Position numbers and translations under genes: made by a program. Below the pieces are notes generated by a model. That model was given only the letters and a program-made list of their open reading frames with translations, had not been told where the DNA came from and made no database searches. This document shows, one piece after another, positions 5,225-30,388 of a stretch of 38,803 nucleotides of DNA (the first letter of the stretch is position 1; the number at the start of each line of letters is the position of its first letter). The stretch is from a virus, in the IMG/VR virus record IMGVR_UViG_3300032893_000161, positions 1 through 38,803 of that record; one strand, 5' to 3'.

Positions 5225-5686
5225 ATGAGTAAATCACATTTGGAAACTAGAAACAGAAAGCCATCGAAGGAATACGTTGCGTGGGGTGCAATGAAACAAA
5301 GGTGCTGCGACACCAATTATCGGTGGTATTTTCGATATGGAGGCAGAGGAATTACCATATGTGATCGCTGGATCGATTCTTTTGAAAATTTTCTCGATGA
5401 CATGGGCAGGGCGCCGTCGCGGCTGCACAGTCTCGATCGCATTGATAATAACGGCGATTATTCTCCAAATAATTGCAGATGGGCCACTAAAAAGGAGCAA
5501 TGCAACAATCGTCGGTCTAATCGTTTAATTACTATAGATGGTATCACCATGACCTTGTCGCAATGGTGTGACCGCGTTGGAAAAACCCGCCGACTGGTGG
5601 GTGTCCGACTGTGTAAGGGATGGCCAGAGCGTGATGCGCTCATGACTCCGATTTTGCGCAAACACAAGGATAAGCAATGGCGCTAG
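5225..5686 (+). CDS. HNH homing-type endonuclease (inserted selfish gene)
   Basis: A 153-residue protein of the phage HNH family. It has YGGRGITICDRW (residues 38-49), SFENFLDDMG, then the core LDRIDNNGDYSPNNCRWAT (70-88) and EQCNNRRSN. The C-terminal part (TLSQWCDRVGKTRRLVGVRL, then GWPERDAL) looks like the helical DNA-binding segment that often follows the nuclease core. Such enzymes cut specific sites and copy their gene into phages lacking it. The DNA is much more AT-rich than its neighbours, a sign of recent arrival. It lies between tape measure and the next tail gene, where function is not expected. It overlaps the next start by 10 bases. Confidence 0.9.
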   Translation: MSKSHLETRNRKPSKEYVAWGAMKQRCCDTNYRWYFRYGGRGITICDRWIDSFENFLDDMGRAPSRLHSLDRIDNNGDYSPNNCRWATKKEQCNNRRSNRLITIDGITMTLSQWCDRVGKTRRLVGVRLCKGWPERDALMTPILRKHKDKQWR

Positions 5687-6474: not shown

Positions 6475-8931
6475 ATGTCGATCGTCAATGGCCAGCCAGT
6501 CAATCAAGCCGCCTCAAACGCCGCATGGCTCGGTCAGGAGTACTTCAAGGCGGGCTACGTCCGGACGACAACCTCGGGGGCCACCCTGGCGCTCCTCGTG
6601 AGCTCTCCGACCTTCCAGTCCTTCACGGGCGCGGCCACCCAGAAGGTCACGCTCCCCGATGCGACGACCCTCACGGTCGGACGCGCTTTCAAGTTCAACA
6701 ACACCGCGTCGGCAATCGTATCGATCTACGCCGTGGACGGTACGACTCTGATCACCGCGCTCGAGCCCGCGCAGGCGGCCTGGATCGTCTGCCGCGATAA
6801 CTCGACCGCCAATGGCCTCTGGGATGTCGACGCGCAGAGGGTCGACCCCATTGTCTCGGTCAAGGACTACGGCGCGGTGGGTGATGGGGTAACCGATGAC
6901 ACCGCGGCGATCCAGGCCGCGATTGATGAGGGTGGTGCGACCTACTTCCCGAAGGGCACTTACCTAATTAATTCGGGTCCGGTGTCGATCGGCTCGAGCA
7001 CCCGACTCTACGGCGACGGGCAGGGAGTGACGACGATCAAGGCCGGGACCGACGCCTACGGAAGCAAGCCGCTTTTTGATGCCAGTGGCGAGAGCTTTTT
7101 GGGCTTCAAGGACATGACTTGGAATGGATCGGAGTCGAGCGCCATCGGCGCGGGCTTGAATGGCGACCGCTCGCTCGTGCTCTGCGACGGCTGCACCGAC
7201 ATCGAAGTCGAGAACATCGAGATCAAGAACTACTCCCAGCAATTCAGCCCGGGCTGGGTCACGATCGTCTCGGGCAAGGTGACCAGCGGCTCCAACCAGC
7301 TCACCAACGTCTCGGACACCAGCGCGCTTGCAACCGGACAGAAGCTGATTGGGACCAACATCCCGAATGGAACCACGATTTCGGGCATCTCAGGCACGAC
7401 GGTGACCATGAGCGCCAACGCAACGGGTGGGTCTGCAACGAAGATCACCGTCATCGTTTTCGCCTCAACCAACACGAAAACCGATTTCCCCTACACCTAC
7501 GCATATGCGGCGGCGTTCCCGCGCTGCACGCGGCTTAGGATCCGGAATCTCTACATCCACGATTGCTTTGTCGAAGGCCTTGCGATCTACGGATCGAGCT
7601 ACGTCGATGTGGACAACATCCTGAACGACAACGGGATCGGCGACATGTCGACCCCGCTGCACCTCAGCGCGGTCGGAGACCCCTCGTCGGCCAAGTACTT
7701 GAGCGTCCGAAACGGAAAGGTTCGGGGTCAGACCGGGAGTTCGATCAACATCAGCGGCCAGGGGATCTCGATTGCGGACTGGACCGCGCCTGATTGCAAT
7801 GGCTTCGGATTGAATCTCAGCGTCGAGAGCCTCTGGAAGGGGGATCCCGCTGGGATCAATTCGGAAGTTCGAATCGAAGACTGCCTTCTAAAGACCACGA
7901 CTCCGGGCCGGGACAAGCAGGGCGTCAGCGTTATCGCTGACGGGCTGCTGATGAGCGACTGCTTTTTTGATGGCTTCCAAATCCCGAGCTTCTTCGGAGA
8001 TGACGCAGCCTCTGGCTCAAATTACCTGATCTCGGATTGCCAGTTTTTGAACGCGACCGATGTCGGCGGACAGGCCCTCGTGACCACGGGCGCCTACGTC
8101 CGCAACATGACCGATATCGTGTTCAACGGCTGCGTCTTCAAGGGATCCGATGCCTTCAATATGTTCCTGCTGTCGGTGCGCGGCCTAAAGACCCTGGGCT
8201 GCATTTTCAAGACGGCCCAGACGAACAATATCTTCTTCCACGCCTTGAACGACTGGACGATGGGAGATTGCCTCGTCGATAACAGCGCGGTCACCGGATT
8301 CTCAACCGCTCTGATCTCCCACAACGAGACCACCCAGGTCAGTGGAAACTGGTACCTCCACGACAATATTCTCACCGGCACGACCAACAACTACGCCATT
8401 TTTGCGGACAAAGTGGGGACCGTCAAGATCTCGAACAACACTCCGCCGAAGCTCCTGATCTACCAGGACAACCCAGACGCCACGCTGACGCCCTCGGTCG
8501 CAGCAAGCGGAGTGGCCTCCGGAAGCTACAAGACGCCCTTCGCCCTCTCGAATGGATTTCTTTGGGTGGACTCCCGGAATAATCCAAGAATCTCGCGTCT
8601 CACGCCAGGCTCCGATACCGACGGCTACGTTCTCTCGGTTCCGCGTCAGGTCACCAGAACGGTCGCGACCACGGGAGACTACTCGATCAGCGATTACTGG
8701 ATGGACACCACGTCCGGCGCCCTCGATTTCACGTTCCCGGCGGCCTCGAGTTGCTGGCCTGGCTTTGAGATCCTGATCGCCAACGTGGGCTTCGGAGCGA
8801 GCAACGACCTGAATCAGTATCGATCGGTCGGAGATCTTTTCAACAACCAGACTACGATTCCAGCCCTTGGGGCCGGAGATTCCAACCGCTGGCAGACCGA
8901 CGGAATCAGTAAGTGGCTGCAGGTTTTCTGA
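6475..8931 (+). CDS. Tailspike with pectate-lyase-type beta-helix (candidate depolymerase)
   Basis: An 818-residue protein. Residues 127-165 carry the entry signature of the pectate lyase 3 / right-handed beta-helix family (VSVKDYGAVGDGVTDDTAAI, then YFPKGTYLI), followed by long beta-helix sequence to about 690. A separate small module lies at about 267-328 (SGSNQLTNVSDTSAL, NIPNGTTISGISGTTVTMS), a known insertion type in phage spikes. The first 120 residues are probably the virion-attachment and N-terminal domains. Beta-helix spikes commonly bind or cleave host surface polysaccharide. The catalytic residues cannot be assigned by eye, so enzyme activity is inferred. Confidence 0.85.
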   Translation: MSIVNGQPVNQAASNAAWLGQEYFKAGYVRTTTSGATLALLVSSPTFQSFTGAATQKVTLPDATTLTVGRAFKFNNTASAIVSIYAVDGTTLITALEPAQAAWIVCRDNSTANGLWDVDAQRVDPIVSVKDYGAVGDGVTDDTAAIQAAIDEGGATYFPKGTYLINSGPVSIGSSTRLYGDGQGVTTIKAGTDAYGSKPLFDASGESFLGFKDMTWNGSESSAIGAGLNGDRSLVLCDGCTDIEVENIEIKNYSQQFSPGWVTIVSGKVTSGSNQLTNVSDTSALATGQKLIGTNIPNGTTISGISGTTVTMSANATGGSATKITVIVFASTNTKTDFPYTYAYAAAFPRCTRLRIRNLYIHDCFVEGLAIYGSSYVDVDNILNDNGIGDMSTPLHLSAVGDPSSAKYLSVRNGKVRGQTGSSINISGQGISIADWTAPDCNGFGLNLSVESLWKGDPAGINSEVRIEDCLLKTTTPGRDKQGVSVIADGLLMSDCFFDGFQIPSFFGDDAASGSNYLISDCQFLNATDVGGQALVTTGAYVRNMTDIVFNGCVFKGSDAFNMFLLSVRGLKTLGCIFKTAQTNNIFFHALNDWTMGDCLVDNSAVTGFSTALISHNETTQVSGNWYLHDNILTGTTNNYAIFADKVGTVKISNNTPPKLLIYQDNPDATLTPSVAASGVASGSYKTPFALSNGFLWVDSRNNPRISRLTPGSDTDGYVLSVPRQVTRTVATTGDYSISDYWMDTTSGALDFTFPAASSCWPGFEILIANVGFGASNDLNQYRSVGDLFNNQTTIPALGAGDSNRWQTDGISKWLQVF

Positions 8932-19764: not shown

Positions 19765-20630
19765 GGGATTACCTCCTGAAAAAGTTTCATCTGCCGCATG
19801 GCCTTCACGGCCGAAGGGTTGAGCCAAAGTCGCTCCGTTCGAGGCGAACCGACGTTTCCTCGGTGAAAGGTCATCGCCCGCGTTTCCCGATATTCCCAGC
19901 CAAGGCGATCGTAGATCGGCGTAGGATACCCGCTCAGAACAACCATCCCCTTAAGCCCGGCTAGGAAGTCGATCAGCTTCAAGTGGTCCTGATCGGTCAT
20001 CTCGTGCCGATAGCCATGGCCATTCGTCTTCAGCCCACGCGTACGGATGTCCGAGCGGGTCGCGTGCACATATGGGGGATCGCAGTAGTGCAGAGTTTCG
20101 TCGGAGTCCTGCGAGAGCATGACCTCGAGAGCATCGCGATTCTCGATGACCACTCCCCGAAGCCGTTCGTGGAAGGCTTCGATATGGACGGGCCAGCTCG
20201 CCCAATCGTGCGCTGGCGTCGTGCCTGCGCGGCTGGAGTTGGAGCGAAAGCCAGTGCGCCATTTTCGAGTCACGCTGTCAGCGCCGAAACCCATGAACGA
20301 TCGAATGATCGTCCGTCTTGCGCGCTCGACCGGATCCTTCACGAAACGCCGGTTCTGGGCAAGCTCGAGCTCGTCACGAGCGAAGGGGGTTGCCTCGAGC
20401 AGCCGACGAAGTCGCCGATGCCTGTCCCGGAGCACGCGGAACACGTTGACGACCTCGCCATCCAGATCGTTGTAGATCTCGCCGTAGGTCCTCGGCTTCA
20501 ACATAAGAACGCTTGCTCCTCCTCCGAATGGCTCCGTGTAAATCCGATGCTCGGGGAAGTTCTCGATGATCCAAGGGGCAATCCGCCACTTGCCGCCGAA
20601 GTACCTGAGCACGGGCCGCCCGACGGTCAT
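19761..20630 (-). CDS. dam: D12-class (Dam-type) adenine-N6 DNA methyltransferase
   Basis: A 289-residue enzyme that methylates adenine in DNA with S-adenosylmethionine. Visible motifs in family order: LRYFGGKWRIAPWI (residues 8-21), TEPFGGGASVL (32-42, cofactor loop), YNDLDGEVVNVFRVLRD (53-69) and YCDPPY (182-187, catalytic motif). This order and length match Dam-type enzymes, whose site is usually GATC, though the target here is not proved. ATG 20630 overlaps the glycosyltransferase stop by 4 bases. The frame is open much further upstream, but that mirrors the neighbouring gene. GATC is strikingly frequent throughout the genome. Confidence 0.9.
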   Translation of the reverse strand: MTVGRPVLRYFGGKWRIAPWIIENFPEHRIYTEPFGGGASVLMLKPRTYGEIYNDLDGEVVNVFRVLRDRHRRLRRLLEATPFARDELELAQNRRFVKDPVERARRTIIRSFMGFGADSVTRKWRTGFRSNSSRAGTTPAHDWASWPVHIEAFHERLRGVVIENRDALEVMLSQDSDETLHYCDPPYVHATRSDIRTRGLKTNGHGYRHEMTDQDHLKLIDFLAGLKGMVVLSGYPTPIYDRLGWEYRETRAMTFHRGNVGSPRTERLWLNPSAVKAMRQMKLFQEVIP

Positions 20631-21385
20631 ACGGCTCCCGACAGCGGCATCTTGTCCCGGACGTACTCCTCGAAGCTCCCGAAGTAGCGGCCGTCGGCGT
20701 GCTCGCGCTTGTACTGCGAGTAGATCGGGTGATGCGGCACCGGGTGCTTGGTCTCCCGGAAGTCGTAGAGATAGCACCACCGCATGCCGATCTCCCGCAT
20801 GTGGGCCTCCATCGCGATCTCGACCTTGCCGTAGTAGAGCGTGGGGGCAAGCATCCCCTTGTCGAGCGCGCGGCCCCGGAACAGGGTCGCGGCCCACATG
20901 TCGGTCGAGTCGGTGACCGCGCATCGGTGGCCAGCGATCGTCTCAAAGCGCCAGCGCCGATTATTTACACAGCGCTCGTCGAGGAGCGCAACATAGCCCA
21001 GGCTCGGGTCGGCACGCATGACGTCCACCATGGCCTTTCCCCAGCCCGGGGTCAGCGGCCAGATGTCGAGGTCGTAGTTGAGCACCAGAGTCTCCGCGGT
21101 GAACGAGGTGAGCGCCTTCAGCTTCTCGAGGCCGAAGTTGAAGCCGCCGTGCCCGCCGCGGTTTCTCTCCGGGCGCTCGAGGATCGGGTTGGCGCAGGCA
21201 AGCGCGCTTTTGAAATTCGACACCGCGGCGATCCACTCGGGCTCGGTGCTCAGCGGCCAGCGGTTGTCGACGAGCATCCAGGGCGAGGGGTTGCAAGCGA
21301 AACCGGCGGTCGCCCACATCTGGGTGATCGTCTGCAGAATGATCGCGGGATCCATGTACAGAATACTGATTGCAGTCAGGTCCAT
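20627..21385 (-). CDS. GT-A-type glycosyltransferase, coupled to the methyltransferase
   Basis: A 252-residue protein. The central VLNYDLDIWPLTPGW (about residues 101-115) has the D-x-D motif that binds the metal and nucleotide sugar in GT-A enzymes. Around it are GHGGFNFGLEKLKALTSFTAE and, later, DMWAATLFRGRALDKGML, which look like the acceptor side. AAGGAG lies 8 bases before ATG 21385. Transferred sugar and acceptor cannot be read from the sequence. The coupled stop/start with the DNA methyltransferase raises DNA as an acceptor. A host surface glycan is the other option. Confidence 0.7.
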   Translation of the reverse strand: MDLTAISILYMDPAIILQTITQMWATAGFACNPSPWMLVDNRWPLSTEPEWIAAVSNFKSALACANPILERPERNRGGHGGFNFGLEKLKALTSFTAETLVLNYDLDIWPLTPGWGKAMVDVMRADPSLGYVALLDERCVNNRRWRFETIAGHRCAVTDSTDMWAATLFRGRALDKGMLAPTLYYGKVEIAMEAHMREIGMRWCYLYDFRETKHPVPHHPIYSQYKREHADGRYFGSFEEYVRDKMPLSGAV

Positions 21386-21442: not shown

Positions 21443-21688
21443 TTATCCGGAGCCGTCGCCGTAGCCGGAGCCGGAGCCGTCGCCGTCGCCGTCGCCGTAG
21501 CCGTAGCCGGAGCCGGAGCCGTCGCCGTCGCCGTCGCCGTAGCCGTAGCCGGAGCCGGAGCCGTCGCCGTCGCCGGAGCCGTCGCCGTAGCCGTCGCCGT
21601 AGCCGGTGCCGTCGCCGTCGCCGTAGCCGTAGCCGGAGCCGGAGCCGTAGCCGGAGCCGGAGCCGTCGCCGTAGCCTTTAGGACTCAC
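21443..21688 (-). CDS. Gly-Asp/Ser/Tyr dipeptide-repeat protein (81 residues)
   Basis: After MSPK the whole protein is made of X-Gly pairs with X = Asp, Ser, Tyr or once Thr. A 14-residue block (YGYGDGDGDGSGSG) occurs twice in tandem, with decayed copies before it. Every second residue is Gly, so no stable fold is expected. GTG 21688 overlaps the stop of the upstream gene (GTGA), which supports translation. DGDGDG stretches mimic the D-x-D-x-D-G calcium loop but lack the usual Glu at position 12. The repeats make the gene prone to length change. The function is unknown. Confidence 0.55.
   Translation of the reverse strand: MSPKGYGDGSGSGYGSGSGYGYGDGDGTGYGDGYGDGSGDGDGSGSGYGYGDGDGDGSGSGYGYGDGDGDGSGSGYGDGSG
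21447..21676. repeat. Hexanucleotide-based tandem repeat array
   Basis: On the plus strand this is a run of hexamers GCCGTC, GCCGTA and GCCGGA. They combine into a 42-bp unit that is repeated perfectly at least twice in the left half of the array, with diverged units to its right. Codon use is almost fixed per residue (GGC, GAC, TCC, TAC), as expected from recent slippage. Assembly of such a run from short reads can misjudge its length. Confidence 0.85.
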
Positions 21689-25753: not shown

Positions 25754-26014
25754 CTATTTCCGCTTATCACACCGACTTCGGAGTTCGGCGCGGGAGAGGA
25801 TGCCTGCGCGCAGCAGAATCTCCAGGACCGGGACTCCCAGGAGCCTGGCGTATTGCCGGATCTCGGAGACCTGAAACTGGCGCTGGCCCGCGAGCGTCCG
25901 CGACACAGCTGACTGGCTGATTGGTTTTCCGTTCGGCCCCCGGAGACGGCGAGCGAAAGCACGCTGATTTCCATGGGTTTCTACGATCTTCTTTTTGAAC
26001 CAGGGGGCATCCAT
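25754..26014 (-). CDS. XRE/Cro-C1-type helix-turn-helix repressor
   Basis: An 86-residue protein with one HTH domain: GNQRAFARRL (residues 15-24), a short insertion (GPNGKPI), then ISQSAVSRTLAGQR as turn and recognition helix, and VSEIRQYARLLGVPVLEILL. There is no C-terminal protease or dimer domain like that of CI, so it is Cro-like in size. It diverges from the oxygenase cassette and converges on the RHH gene. It probably controls the rightward promoter region at 26015-26083. No integrase was found, so lysogeny is not shown. Confidence 0.78.
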   Translation of the reverse strand: MDAPWFKKKIVETHGNQRAFARRLRGPNGKPISQSAVSRTLAGQRQFQVSEIRQYARLLGVPVLEILLRAGILSRAELRSRCDKRK

Positions 26015-26083: not shown

Positions 26084-26878
26084 GTGTTCAGCAATTACTT
26101 CATGAATCGATTCGAGCTCGAGGAGGGACCGCTGAAGCGGTATTACCGAAACGCCCGGCCCTTCCCTCACTTCGTCTCGGACTCGATCTTCAACCTCCGC
26201 GATGTCCGGGCGCTCGCCGCATCGGTACCGCCCCTCGACGATTCTTGGTATCGCTACAACAACTGCTTTGAAGTCAAACGCGCGATGGATCGGATCCACG
26301 GCCTCTCGCCGACCATCGATCGGTGGATCGAGTTTTTCGCAAGCCGCTACTTCCTGAACTTCGCCGAGAAGATCACCGGGATCGATGGCCTCCTCCCGGA
26401 CCCAGACCTCCGGGGCGGCGGCTTCCATCTGATCGAGCGCGGCGGAAAGCTCGACATCCACGCCGACTACAACATCCACCCGAAGCTTGGCCTCGAGCGC
26501 AGGCTGAACGGGATCCTGTTCCTGAACGAGGACTGGGAGGAGAAGTGGGGCGGCGAGCTCGAGCTCTGGGATCAGGAGATGCGGGAGTGCCAGGCCAGGA
26601 TCAAGCCCAGCTTAGGGACTTTCGTACTCTTCAACGTGGACGATCAGAGCTTCCACGGCCACCCCGATCCGCTCTCCTGCCCGGCCGGGATCTCTCGGAA
26701 AAGTTTTGCGGTGTATTACTATACCAAACCACGCAGTCAGGACATGCGGCCCCACTCGACTCTGTATCAGAAGCGGCCGAATGAACCCCTGGATCTGCAG
26801 AAAGAGGAGCTTCGACGGCTCCGCGCGAAAGGAAGACTACCTGATGGAGCAACAAGCCCAAACCCCCGCCCTGCCTGA
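26084..26878 (+). CDS. 2-oxoglutarate/Fe(II)-dependent oxygenase (prolyl-4-hydroxylase-like)
   Basis: A 264-residue enzyme that hydroxylates an unknown substrate using iron, oxygen and 2-oxoglutarate. Iron ligands are His126 and Asp128 in KLDIHADYNIH and His191 in DQSFHGHPDPL. Arg205 in ISRKSFAVYYYT would bind 2-oxoglutarate. The surrounding ERRLNGILFLNEDWEEKWGG and LELWDQEM are typical of the 2OG-FeII_Oxy_3 family. GTG 26084 has no clear ribosome site, so ATG 26102 is a fair alternative start. It leads a set ending in a glycosyltransferase. Targets could be a nucleotide, virion protein or sugar. Confidence 0.85.
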   Translation: MFSNYFMNRFELEEGPLKRYYRNARPFPHFVSDSIFNLRDVRALAASVPPLDDSWYRYNNCFEVKRAMDRIHGLSPTIDRWIEFFASRYFLNFAEKITGIDGLLPDPDLRGGGFHLIERGGKLDIHADYNIHPKLGLERRLNGILFLNEDWEEKWGGELELWDQEMRECQARIKPSLGTFVLFNVDDQSFHGHPDPLSCPAGISRKSFAVYYYTKPRSQDMRPHSTLYQKRPNEPLDLQKEELRRLRAKGRLPDGATSPNPRPA

Positions 26879-27242
26879 GAGCCAGGCAGAACTGAAGAAG
26901 CCCGAGCAGAATCAGAAGGAGGCGGAGGTTCATGATCTCAACGCCGTCCGGGCGAAGCTCAGGGAGCAGATGACGGCGGTCCTCGATCGCCACCGGTCCA
27001 TGGAGCCCGACGGCCTCATCATCCTGAGCCTGAAGAACGGCCAGTACATGTATGACACAACCCACTTTCCCTCGCTCGGCGATCTGAGCTTCGCGCAGAA
27101 ACTTCTGAATCTCAATATCGACCGGCTGTTTTCGGATTCCCTTCAGGAGCAGGCCCGGATGGCCCAGAAGTTTGACGCAGCGAAGGCAAAGCTCGACGCC
27201 ACCCAGGCCGAGCTCGAGCGCGTGAGGAAAGAGAATTCATGA
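26844..27242 (+). CDS. Coiled-coil protein between oxygenase and glycosyltransferase (132 residues)
   Basis: ATG 26844 follows AAAGGAAG and overlaps the oxygenase end by 35 bases. The first 35 residues are Gln/Glu/Pro/Lys-rich and likely disordered. The middle (GLIILSLKNGQYMYDTTHFP) is a short beta segment, and the end is a coiled coil (QARMAQKFDAAKAKLDATQA). Its stop overlaps the next start by 4 bases (ATGA). It may tether the two enzymes to each other or to a substrate. No family is recognised. Confidence 0.68.
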   Translation: MEQQAQTPALPESQAELKKPEQNQKEAEVHDLNAVRAKLREQMTAVLDRHRSMEPDGLIILSLKNGQYMYDTTHFPSLGDLSFAQKLLNLNIDRLFSDSLQEQARMAQKFDAAKAKLDATQAELERVRKENS

Positions 27243-28375
27243 TCCAGATCCTCGTTGTTTCCCCGTGGGCGAAGGACGCCAACTCTTTCTACCGGTGCAT
27301 GGGCCCCTGGAGCTACCTGGCCAAGCAATCCAGAAAGCGCGGCGATGTCGTCCAGATCCGGCTCGCCCAGGATGACATCGGTAACCAGGGCGTGGCCTGG
27401 GACACCGTGGATCAGTGCGATCTGGTTTTCATGCATCGGCCCTGCCGCGACGGCGACATGACGATCCTGAAGGTCGCCAAGAACATGAACGTGCCGGTCT
27501 GGGTGGACTACGACGACTGGCTCTTCGATGTCCCGCTCTGGAACCCGACCGCGGGCAACTACAACGCGCAGGCGACCCAGAATGTCGTGGCCACCATGAT
27601 GGCGGCGGCCGATGTCGTCTCGGTCACCACCGACGCCCTTTACCAGAGGGTCAAGCTCGTCAACCCGAACGTGGTGATCATCCCGAACTGCTACCGCAGC
27701 GATATCTACCCGTACCGCGCGGCAAAGCCTTTGGCGAGGACCCCTATCTTCGCCTGGCGGGGAACCCGGACCCACGACGCCGATCTGCTCTCGGTGGCGG
27801 AGGGCTTCCGGGATCTCCCGGCCAAGACCCTCTTCTACGGCGACGCGCCCTGGGCGCTGTTTGCCCAGATGAAGCCCGGCTCCTACCAGCCGATCGCGAT
27901 GCAGGATCCCTTTCTGTACATGAAGACGCTCTACGTGAACGCGCCCAAGGTCCTGCTCTTCCCCCTGATGGACTGCTTTTTCAATCGGGTAAAATCCAAC
28001 ATCGCTTATCAAGAAGCCCTGCACGCGGGGGCGATCTGCGTGGGCCCCGATCTTCCGGAGTGGCGCAGAGCGGGCGTCTTAACCTACGAGCCCGGCAACG
28101 CCGAGAGCTTCGCCGCCAGAGCGCGCGAGGCCTTCGCGCTCCCCGCCGACGAGCACGAGGCGATCGTCTCGCAGGCCTACGAGGCGATGATCGGTCAGTA
28201 CGGGGCACCAGAGATCAACCGGATCCGGCAAAACACGCTCGATCAGGTGATGCGCGCTGGCTTCCGCCGCTCGGAGAGAGATCCTTTCGATCCACTTCTC
28301 GGGATGTGGGCGATGGGCAAGATCAAGGAGGTGTCGCGGCCAGAAGCGCTTGACAGCGCGAAGGCCTCGGCATGA
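27239..28375 (+). CDS. GT4-like (GT-B fold) glycosyltransferase
   Basis: A 378-residue protein with a two-domain GT-B layout. The N-terminal half includes SPWAKDANSFYRCMGPWSYL and VDYDDWLFDVP (residues 89-99). The C-terminal half has the donor-binding stretch SNIAYQEALHAGAICVGPDL (about 252-271), then PEWRRAGVLTYEPGN, as in group 1 transferases ('.E...G...V..D'). This type is known in phages, often with unassigned targets. It is coupled by ATGA overlaps on both sides. Sugar donor and acceptor are unknown. A modified virion protein, DNA or host glycan are all possible. Confidence 0.8.
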   Translation: MIQILVVSPWAKDANSFYRCMGPWSYLAKQSRKRGDVVQIRLAQDDIGNQGVAWDTVDQCDLVFMHRPCRDGDMTILKVAKNMNVPVWVDYDDWLFDVPLWNPTAGNYNAQATQNVVATMMAAADVVSVTTDALYQRVKLVNPNVVIIPNCYRSDIYPYRAAKPLARTPIFAWRGTRTHDADLLSVAEGFRDLPAKTLFYGDAPWALFAQMKPGSYQPIAMQDPFLYMKTLYVNAPKVLLFPLMDCFFNRVKSNIAYQEALHAGAICVGPDLPEWRRAGVLTYEPGNAESFAARAREAFALPADEHEAIVSQAYEAMIGQYGAPEINRIRQNTLDQVMRAGFRRSERDPFDPLLGMWAMGKIKEVSRPEALDSAKASA

Positions 28376-28617
28376 AGATTTCTCAGATGGAGAAGTTCCG
28401 GGAATCCTCTCTGGGCGCGCTTGGGCGGCAGCTGCACAGCCCCTGCATGACCTACGGATGCGAGAACCCGACCCAGCACAAGACAGGCTATTGCGAGGCC
28501 TGTCGAACCGCGAGTTGCTCCTTCTGCTCAACCGTGTTTGTCTCCACGACGGCACCGGCCCCGAACCTTTGCTCGAAGTGTCGATGCTACAAGAACCGGA
28601 AGAAGGGCGGCGGATGA
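28372..28617 (+). CDS. Cys-rich small protein (81 residues)
   Basis: Coupled to the glycosyltransferase by ATGA. It holds eight Cys in pairs: CMTYGC, CEAC, CSFC and CSKC, enough for two zinc sites. The ends are basic (KCRCYKNRKKGGG). Zinc proteins of this size near terminase genes may act in DNA packaging or transcription of late genes, but no family match was recognised. The 51 bases after it hold TTTACA (28634-28639), a possible -35 box without a good -10. Confidence 0.65.
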   Translation: MKISQMEKFRESSLGALGRQLHSPCMTYGCENPTQHKTGYCEACRTASCSFCSTVFVSTTAPAPNLCSKCRCYKNRKKGGG

Positions 28618-28668: not shown

Positions 28669-29085
28669 ATGGGAGCGTCAAGACCAAAGGGAGCACCAAA
28701 AACGCCGGGATCCGGAAGGAAGAAGGGCGTCAAGAACAAGCGAAGCCAGCTTGCCGAAGATAAGGCGAAAGAGCTCGGCGTGGATCCATTTGAGATCCTA
28801 CTCTTGTTTGCGGCCGGCGATTGGAAACGGCTTGGTTATTCCAGTGCGACCCGAGAAGTGCCAGCCGGCCGCGGAACGGTCGTGATAGACACGATCGAGC
28901 CTCACGAAAGGCGAGCCGCCGCAAGCGATGCATGCAAGTACCTGCATCCGACCCTGAAATCGGTTGATTTTAAATCGAGTTCGCCAGGAGCCATTGAACC
29001 CAGGATCGTTTACATCGCCGAATGGGGATCCAAAGTGGAGGCCGGTACGAACGGCGGCGCCGACGAGGATGGAAACGCAGACTAA
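28669..29085 (+). CDS. terS: Terminase small subunit (DNA-binding packaging protein)
   Basis: A 138-residue protein directly before the large terminase. The basic N-terminus (PKTPGSGRKKGVKNKRSQLA) is followed by a helix set (DKAKELGVDPFEILLLFAAG, then ERRAAASDACKYLHPTLKSV) seen in small terminases of many siphophages. It would recognise the packaging start site and load DNA into the motor. The C-terminal tail is acidic and flexible. It overlaps the large subunit gene by 17 bases. Confidence 0.75.
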   Translation: MGASRPKGAPKTPGSGRKKGVKNKRSQLAEDKAKELGVDPFEILLLFAAGDWKRLGYSSATREVPAGRGTVVIDTIEPHERRAAASDACKYLHPTLKSVDFKSSSPGAIEPRIVYIAEWGSKVEAGTNGGADEDGNAD

Positions 29086-30388
29086 AATTCTGCGTCTTTA
29101 CGAGCCGCACGCGAAGCAGATGGAATTCCATAGGCTTCAGAAGCGCTACCGCGTCGCTGCTTGGGGACGGCAGAGCGGAAAGTCATCCGCCTGTTTGAAT
29201 GATCTTCTGAAGCGAGCGTGGGAGATTCCTGGACAAAATTTCTGGTTCTGTTCACCCACCTACGACCAAGCGACTGTTCAATATCGCAGACTTGTCTCTA
29301 TGCTCTGGTCAGTCTCGAGCATCCTGCTTAAAAAGAACCAGACCGAGCTCAGGGTCAAGCTCATCAATATGAGCGCGATCCGCTTCGTCTCGGGCGACAA
29401 CTACGAGAACCTTCGCGGCGAGACGCTTCATGGCGCGATCATCGACGAGATGCGAGAGCAGCACCGAGACCTCTGGCCCATGGTTATCCGGCCTATGCTG
29501 GCAACAACGAGGGGCTGGGCGGCCTTCGTCTCAACGCCCTCGGGCTTTGATAGCTTCTACGAGCTCTTCAAAAAAGGCGAGTCAGGCCGCGATCCGAACT
29601 GGGGATCGATCCAGGCGCCCTCGACAGCGAATCCGCACTTCACCCAGGAGGAGTTCGAGGCCGCCCGGGCAGACATGAGCGAGGAGCAATTCGCCCAGGA
29701 GATCCTGGCCGAGTTCCGTGAGCTCGGCGTCGGCAAAGTTTACGTCTCGCACGGCGCGCATAATCAGCGCATAAATCACCCGTTCGCAATTCGCGGACAA
29801 AAAATCTCGCCCCATCTCCCGATCGTCGTCGGCCTCGACTTCAACGTTGGCAAGATGTGCTGGGTGCTGGGCCAGTTCAAGGGCCAGGCCGTCCATTGGC
29901 ATGACGAGCTCGTGATCCGGAATACGAACACGCAGGAGGCCGCCCCAGCCCTGATCCCGAAGCTCCAGGGCCACAAGCCCGGCGTGATCCTGATCGGCGA
30001 CGCGAGCGGCAAGGCCAGGCGCTCGAGCGCGTCTGCGACCGATTACCAGATTATCCTGGAGACCCTGCGTGCAGCCGGCATCTCCGTCAAAAACCTAACG
30101 CCCGAGGCCAACCCGCCCGTGAAGGACCGCGTCAACGTCGTCAACTCCGCCCTGCGCGCAGCCGATGGCTCGATTAATTTCACCTACAACCCGGAGACCT
30201 GCCCGGAGCTTAGGCTCGACCTCGAGCGCACCATTTGGAAGCAGGGCGCCGAGGGCGCGGTGATCGATAAGTCGGACCCGGAGCGCACCCACGCCTCGGA
30301 TGCTGCCGGCTACCCGGTGGCCTACTACTCGACTCAGCTCAGGCCGAAGCCTGGGAAGCTTTACGTGATCGAGCACGCATACCTTTAG
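29069..30388 (+). CDS. terL: Terminase large subunit (packaging ATPase and nuclease)
   Basis: A 439-residue motor. The ATPase half has Walker A GRQSGKS (residues 33-39), Walker B GAIIDE (122-127) and the coupling motif VSTPSG (154-159). The nuclease half has the three acidic sites GLDFN (Asp257), IGDAS (Asp311) and HASDAAG (Asp411) of the RNase H-like fold. ATG 29069 gives a standard N-terminus (RLYEPHAKQMEFH). The upstream extension of the frame lies within terS. The packaging type cannot be read from the sequence, but the permuted genome ends favour headful packaging. Confidence 0.92.
   Translation: METQTKILRLYEPHAKQMEFHRLQKRYRVAAWGRQSGKSSACLNDLLKRAWEIPGQNFWFCSPTYDQATVQYRRLVSMLWSVSSILLKKNQTELRVKLINMSAIRFVSGDNYENLRGETLHGAIIDEMREQHRDLWPMVIRPMLATTRGWAAFVSTPSGFDSFYELFKKGESGRDPNWGSIQAPSTANPHFTQEEFEAARADMSEEQFAQEILAEFRELGVGKVYVSHGAHNQRINHPFAIRGQKISPHLPIVVGLDFNVGKMCWVLGQFKGQAVHWHDELVIRNTNTQEAAPALIPKLQGHKPGVILIGDASGKARRSSASATDYQIILETLRAAGISVKNLTPEANPPVKDRVNVVNSALRAADGSINFTYNPETCPELRLDLERTIWKQGAEGAVIDKSDPERTHASDAAGYPVAYYSTQLRPKPGKLYVIEHAYL

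Follow-up and report, generated by a model that had tools for sequence, protein, structure and literature searches.

A conserved oxygenase and glycosyltransferase cassette ahead of the terminase genes of a tailed phage: a candidate glycan-building module

The tailed-phage record analysed here (38.8 kb; 38,803 nucleotides, the whole of which is called the window) carries four overlapping genes immediately ahead of its terminase genes, and the question raised by this locus is what their products modify. The original prediction was that a hydroxyl group is first introduced and then receives a sugar, with a coiled-coil protein serving as tether and a small zinc protein as the fourth member of the pathway. 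All four genes were confirmed as real at the predicted positions (26084-28617), with overlaps of 35, 4 and 4 bases between consecutive genes (Table 1). Their predicted place, first in the late block and behind an XRE-type control gene, was also borne out: the regulator is on the minus strand and the late genes are all on the plus strand. The minus strand carries the early block, including the ERF recombinase and a D12 DNA methylase. Promoter- and terminator-like signals around the cassette were at chance level in our scans. Elsewhere, the window encodes a tail-spike-like protein (6475-8931, plus strand) matching polysaccharide-degrading spikes.

Table 1. Features of the oxygenase-glycosyltransferase locus in the window
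Feature	Position	Strand	Remarks
GT-A/GT2-type glycosyltransferase homologue	20627-21385	-	homology to L089 GT2; probable second sugar enzyme
XRE-type regulator	25754-26014	-	borders cassette on upstream side
P4H-like 2OG-Fe(II) oxygenase	26084-26878	+	264 aa; PF13640; HxD 126/128, H191, R205; Tpa1/OGFOD1-like modelled fold
Small protein, conserved core (~aa 46-95) and coiled-coil C-terminal extension	26844-27242	+	132 aa
GT4-like GT-B glycosyltransferase	27239-28375	+	378 aa; full-length, soluble
Cys-rich zinc-knuckle small protein (Zn protein)	28372-28617	+	81 aa; lineage gene
TerS-like gene	28669-29085	+	phrog_15261; directly 3' of Zn gene
TerL, terminase large subunit	29069-30388	+	marks conserved position of cassette

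The first gene encodes a P4H-like 2OG-Fe(II) oxygenase with an intact active site, as predicted. Its product matches PF13640 (E 5e-18) and PF13661 (E 1e-10), and H126, D128, H191 and R205 are invariant across 62 homologues. The AlphaFold model (pLDDT 90) has the DSBH fold, the HxD...H iron site and the basic 2OG residue of P4H-like enzymes. The nearest folds to the predicted model were Tpa1 (Z 22.9) and OGFOD1 (Z 21.9), followed by PolD, P. putida P4H, PasI and PHD2; PolD and PasI are presumably small-molecule enzymes.

The GT4-like glycosyltransferase (GT) was likewise upheld. It gave no match in Pfam, and a sequence search of solved structures returned chance matches only, but it matches PHROG 7162 'glycosyltransferase' (E 6e-22) and its confident model (pLDDT 90) shows the two-domain GT-B fold of BshA and PimA; BshA and other GT4 enzymes were aligned at Z 26.8 and rmsd 2.7 over ∼310 residues. 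E259, which we infer to belong to the EX7E motif, is kept in at least 90% of the A7 alignment, and the first position of the motif is apparently not Glu. No transmembrane segment was detected by hydropathy. Searches of plasmids and bacterial genomes with the GT gave no match. Neither the GT nor the oxygenase found anything when used as a single-protein query against viral and bacterial contigs; alignment-based searches were required to find the relatives of both enzymes described below.

A GT2-type gene on the early strand of the window is probably a second sugar enzyme of the system. It has no Pfam or PHROG match of its own, and the assignment rests on homology to the GT2 of the related contig L089. 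Of the 10 GT4-carrying relatives, 7 have GT2 genes, compared with 0 of 3 TerL relatives without the cassette. An 81-aa protein (21443-21688, minus strand), encoded immediately ahead of the window's GT2-type gene, consists almost wholly of GYGDGSG-like repeats from a 42-bp tandem repeat and is possibly a substrate.

The order oxygenase, GT4, Zn gene and TerL was found in eight other contigs (L088, L089, L163, L164, L184, L185, L186 and L189) representing seven lineages; the enzymes of L184 and L185 are identical. Because the unit recurs in this way, the grouping of the genes is not a chance arrangement, and the predicted co-occurrence of oxygenase, GT and Zn protein ahead of TerL holds. The fuller unit in these contigs runs oxygenase - (methyltransferase / small protein) - GT4 - Zn - TerS - TerL. 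In these contigs, the L184/L185 pair aside, the GT has diverged to 39-54% identity and the oxygenase to 40-74%, and the pairwise identities of the two enzymes were weakly correlated (r 0.29), so that strict co-inheritance is not established. Two contigs, L090 and L091, have GT4, Zn and TerL, and no oxygenase was found in these fragment records of 12.6 and 13.4 kb. In the wider GT family (80 loci), TerL was found at 38 loci; at 37 of these it follows the GT on the same strand, usually 0.5-3.5 kb away. Many of these loci belong to one clade and hence are not independent. TerL is also preceded by a distant GT-B gene in one viral-contig clade (L115-L141), two of whose members, L116 and L119, have an LpxA-like acetyltransferase and a GT2-like gene in the interval.

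Further genes accompany the cassette in the relatives. All six of the longer cassette-bearing relatives carry a SAM methyltransferase, either between oxygenase and GT or after TerL, and two (L089 and L164) carry a nucleotide-sugar epimerase; the window has no methyltransferase or epimerase of this kind. A ParB-like gene and an N6/N4 DNA methylase are located between the Zn gene and TerS/TerL in L088 (4330-5730) and L164 (9325-10551), called by ParB homology in the former and by Pfam in the latter; the window has none between its Zn gene and TerS. In L152, a cassette-less TerL relative, a TET-associated glycosyltransferase (PF20691; 2642-3445) stands between a ParB-like gene and TerS, indicating that DNA-modifying genes also visit the pre-terminase site.

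The two small proteins fared differently from the enzymes. The core of the second gene product is shared with L089 (E 3e-6) and L163 (36% over 50 aa), and L164 has a probable homologue; homology to the small proteins of L091 and L184 was not established. In relatives, these homologues lie ahead of the GT, either next to it or separated from it by a methyltransferase. The predicted coiled coil is present, but only as a C-terminal extension outside the conserved core of this small-protein family. It is not conserved, and a role as tether finds no support. The Cys-rich zinc protein is as described, with eight Cys conserved across eight homologues, and every close relative that carries the GT has kept its gene. 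L087 and L159 have the gene too, and the available stretches of their records showed neither oxygenase nor GT, so membership in the pathway is not supported. It looks more like a gene of the lineage that opens the late block and has no strict link to the enzymes.

We examined the genes next to the oxygenase family, which is common in viral contigs. The neighbours of the viral oxygenases included GT2 (18/104), a second GT2 family (12) and cytidylyltransferase-like proteins (11), as well as methyltransferases and epimerases. In a control of 104 distant ORFs from the same loci, only two GT9 matches appeared among the 25 commonest families. Cellular relatives of the oxygenase lie in (surface-)polysaccharide loci; on bacterial plasmids, relatives adjoin genes for GT, methyltransferase, polysaccharide deacetylase, KpsF, epimerase, sulfotransferase and flippase. 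Pairing with other GTs is seen for oxygenase relatives of marine viruses, of Streptomyces phages and of bacterial loci for polysaccharides.

A related arrangement is present in the cultured Streptomyces phages Zuko and KimJongPhill (Zukovirus). The left end of both genomes reads UDP-glucose dehydrogenase - (MTase, in KimJongPhill) - GT4 - TerS-position gene - TerL, and the KimJongPhill GT belongs to the same family as that of the window (hhalign probability 99.7). In both phages, a GT of this family (gp6 in KimJongPhill, gp5 in Zuko) is directly ahead of TerS/TerL; it is only ∼26% identical to the L089 GT (tblastn). Unlike in the window, the oxygenase relative, encoded by gp110 in KimJongPhill and gp109 in Zuko, is not beside the pre-terminase GT; it lies in an oxygenase-GT-methyltransferase-GT operon at the right end of both phages. 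No paper testing the function of these GTs was found in the open-access literature.

The explanation that we favor, and hold to be somewhat probable, is a late-expressed glycan-building module in which GT4 and GT2-type enzymes decorate the virion. Working in the cytoplasm during late gene expression, the two GTs would take sugars from nucleotide sugars and attach them to something that the phage makes, most likely a virion protein. These donors would be derived from the host and, in some relatives, also made by the phage. The oxygenase would tailor the product by hydroxylating the sugar or glycan (a protein residue is the less probable target), a step that is optional, like that of the methyltransferase in relatives. 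We infer the late expression, the virion target and the order of these steps. The analysis establishes the enzyme families, the intact oxygenase site, the co-conservation and fixed pre-terminase place of the genes, and the absence of a membrane anchor by hydropathy. GT genes in the late/structural region, a hallmark of phage virion glycosylation modules, were found here. In mycobacteriophages (Che8 and others), phage GTs place sugars on capsid and tail subunits (Freeman et al. 2023, cited in PMC11256854 and PMC12619734). Both systems have phage-encoded GTs; in the window phage the virion glycan is a prediction, and no 2OG oxygenase is reported for the mycobacteriophages as far as these citing papers go. 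The late position, the soluble enzymes, the glycosylated mycobacteriophage virions, and the fact that no integrase, resolvase or GtrA was found all fit the virion-glycan reading. The richness of viral oxygenase neighbours in GT2, epimerase and methyltransferase relative to distant ORFs also counts for it; counting against it are the lack of the relatives' methyltransferase and epimerase in the window, the TET-associated GT in the L152 pre-terminase spot, and the GT2-type gene, located on the early strand here and elsewhere in relatives.

Alternatively, the oxygenase could hydroxylate a virion residue (e.g., proline) and GT4 could glycosylate the new hydroxyl. The two genes do form a neighbouring, overlapping cassette, together in eight contigs, and the oxygenase model is nearest to ribosomal prolyl hydroxylases (Tpa1/OGFOD1), with P. 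putida P4H also near. However, PolD and PasI are among the fold neighbours too, and the window ORFs have no collagen-like repeats. The occurrence of the GT without oxygenase in L090/L091 and of oxygenase relatives with unrelated GTs argues against the predicted hydroxylation that makes the GT acceptor, and we consider this kind of protein glycosylation unlikely. The broader proposal, Tpa1-like hydroxylation of the phage's own virion protein followed by GT4 O-glycosylation, occurring in several lineages and in related form in the cultured Streptomyces phages, appears quite unlikely. A collagen-like substrate was rejected on the basis that no Gly-X-Y runs exist in the window ORFs. Taken as a whole, the original prediction held for the enzyme families, the active site, the position and the co-occurrence, and found no support for the acceptor-making hydroxylation, the tether and the zinc protein's membership.

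Modification of the cell's own glycan, for receptor masking or superinfection exclusion, would agree with the cellular oxygenase relatives in surface-polysaccharide loci and with the window tail spike, which suggests a polysaccharide receptor. Yet the GT lacks a transmembrane segment by hydropathy, there is no GtrA flippase, integrase or resolvase, and the cassette accompanies late packaging genes, when a surface change is of little use just before lysis; such a role is distinctly improbable. A Gtr serotype-conversion cluster was discarded (no GtrA flippase and no membrane GT). DNA as the target, with the GT glycosylating hydroxylated bases and thereby protecting the phage genome, is very unlikely. 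TET/JBP-GT systems occur in phages and share the logic of 2OG oxygenase plus GT, and ParB-DNA methylase genes lie near the cassette in relatives. The window oxygenase is of another subfamily, PF13640, with no Tet_JBP match at E≤1, and its relatives cluster with glycan genes; a separate six-frame search for the Tet_JBP domain, run without a positive control, likewise gave none. No C5-methylase or thymidylate-synthase-like hydroxymethylase was found in the window record or in L089 with working controls. The oxygenase subfamily and the lack of base-modifying partners disfavor a DNA target; the L152 gene, a TET-associated GT in the same position, counts for it.

Virion glycosylation has so far been reported for only a few phages, and no role has been tested for the many 2OG oxygenases that environmental phages encode. 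Cyanophages encode PF13640/PF13661 P4H-like oxygenases similar to that of the window (PMC9602691, PMC12774648), and their viral functions are described as not specifically investigated (PMC9602691); within what these two reports cover, no fixed GT4 cassette ahead of the terminase is described. Our search of the open-access literature found no paper on an oxygenase-GT4 pre-terminase cassette. A fixed cassette of this type provides phage oxygenases with a concrete setting in glycan making, and its relatives in cultured Streptomyces phages make the function testable. Among the tail genes of the window, an HNH endonuclease gene (5225-5686, plus strand) follows the tape measure gene and perhaps encodes a homing endonuclease.
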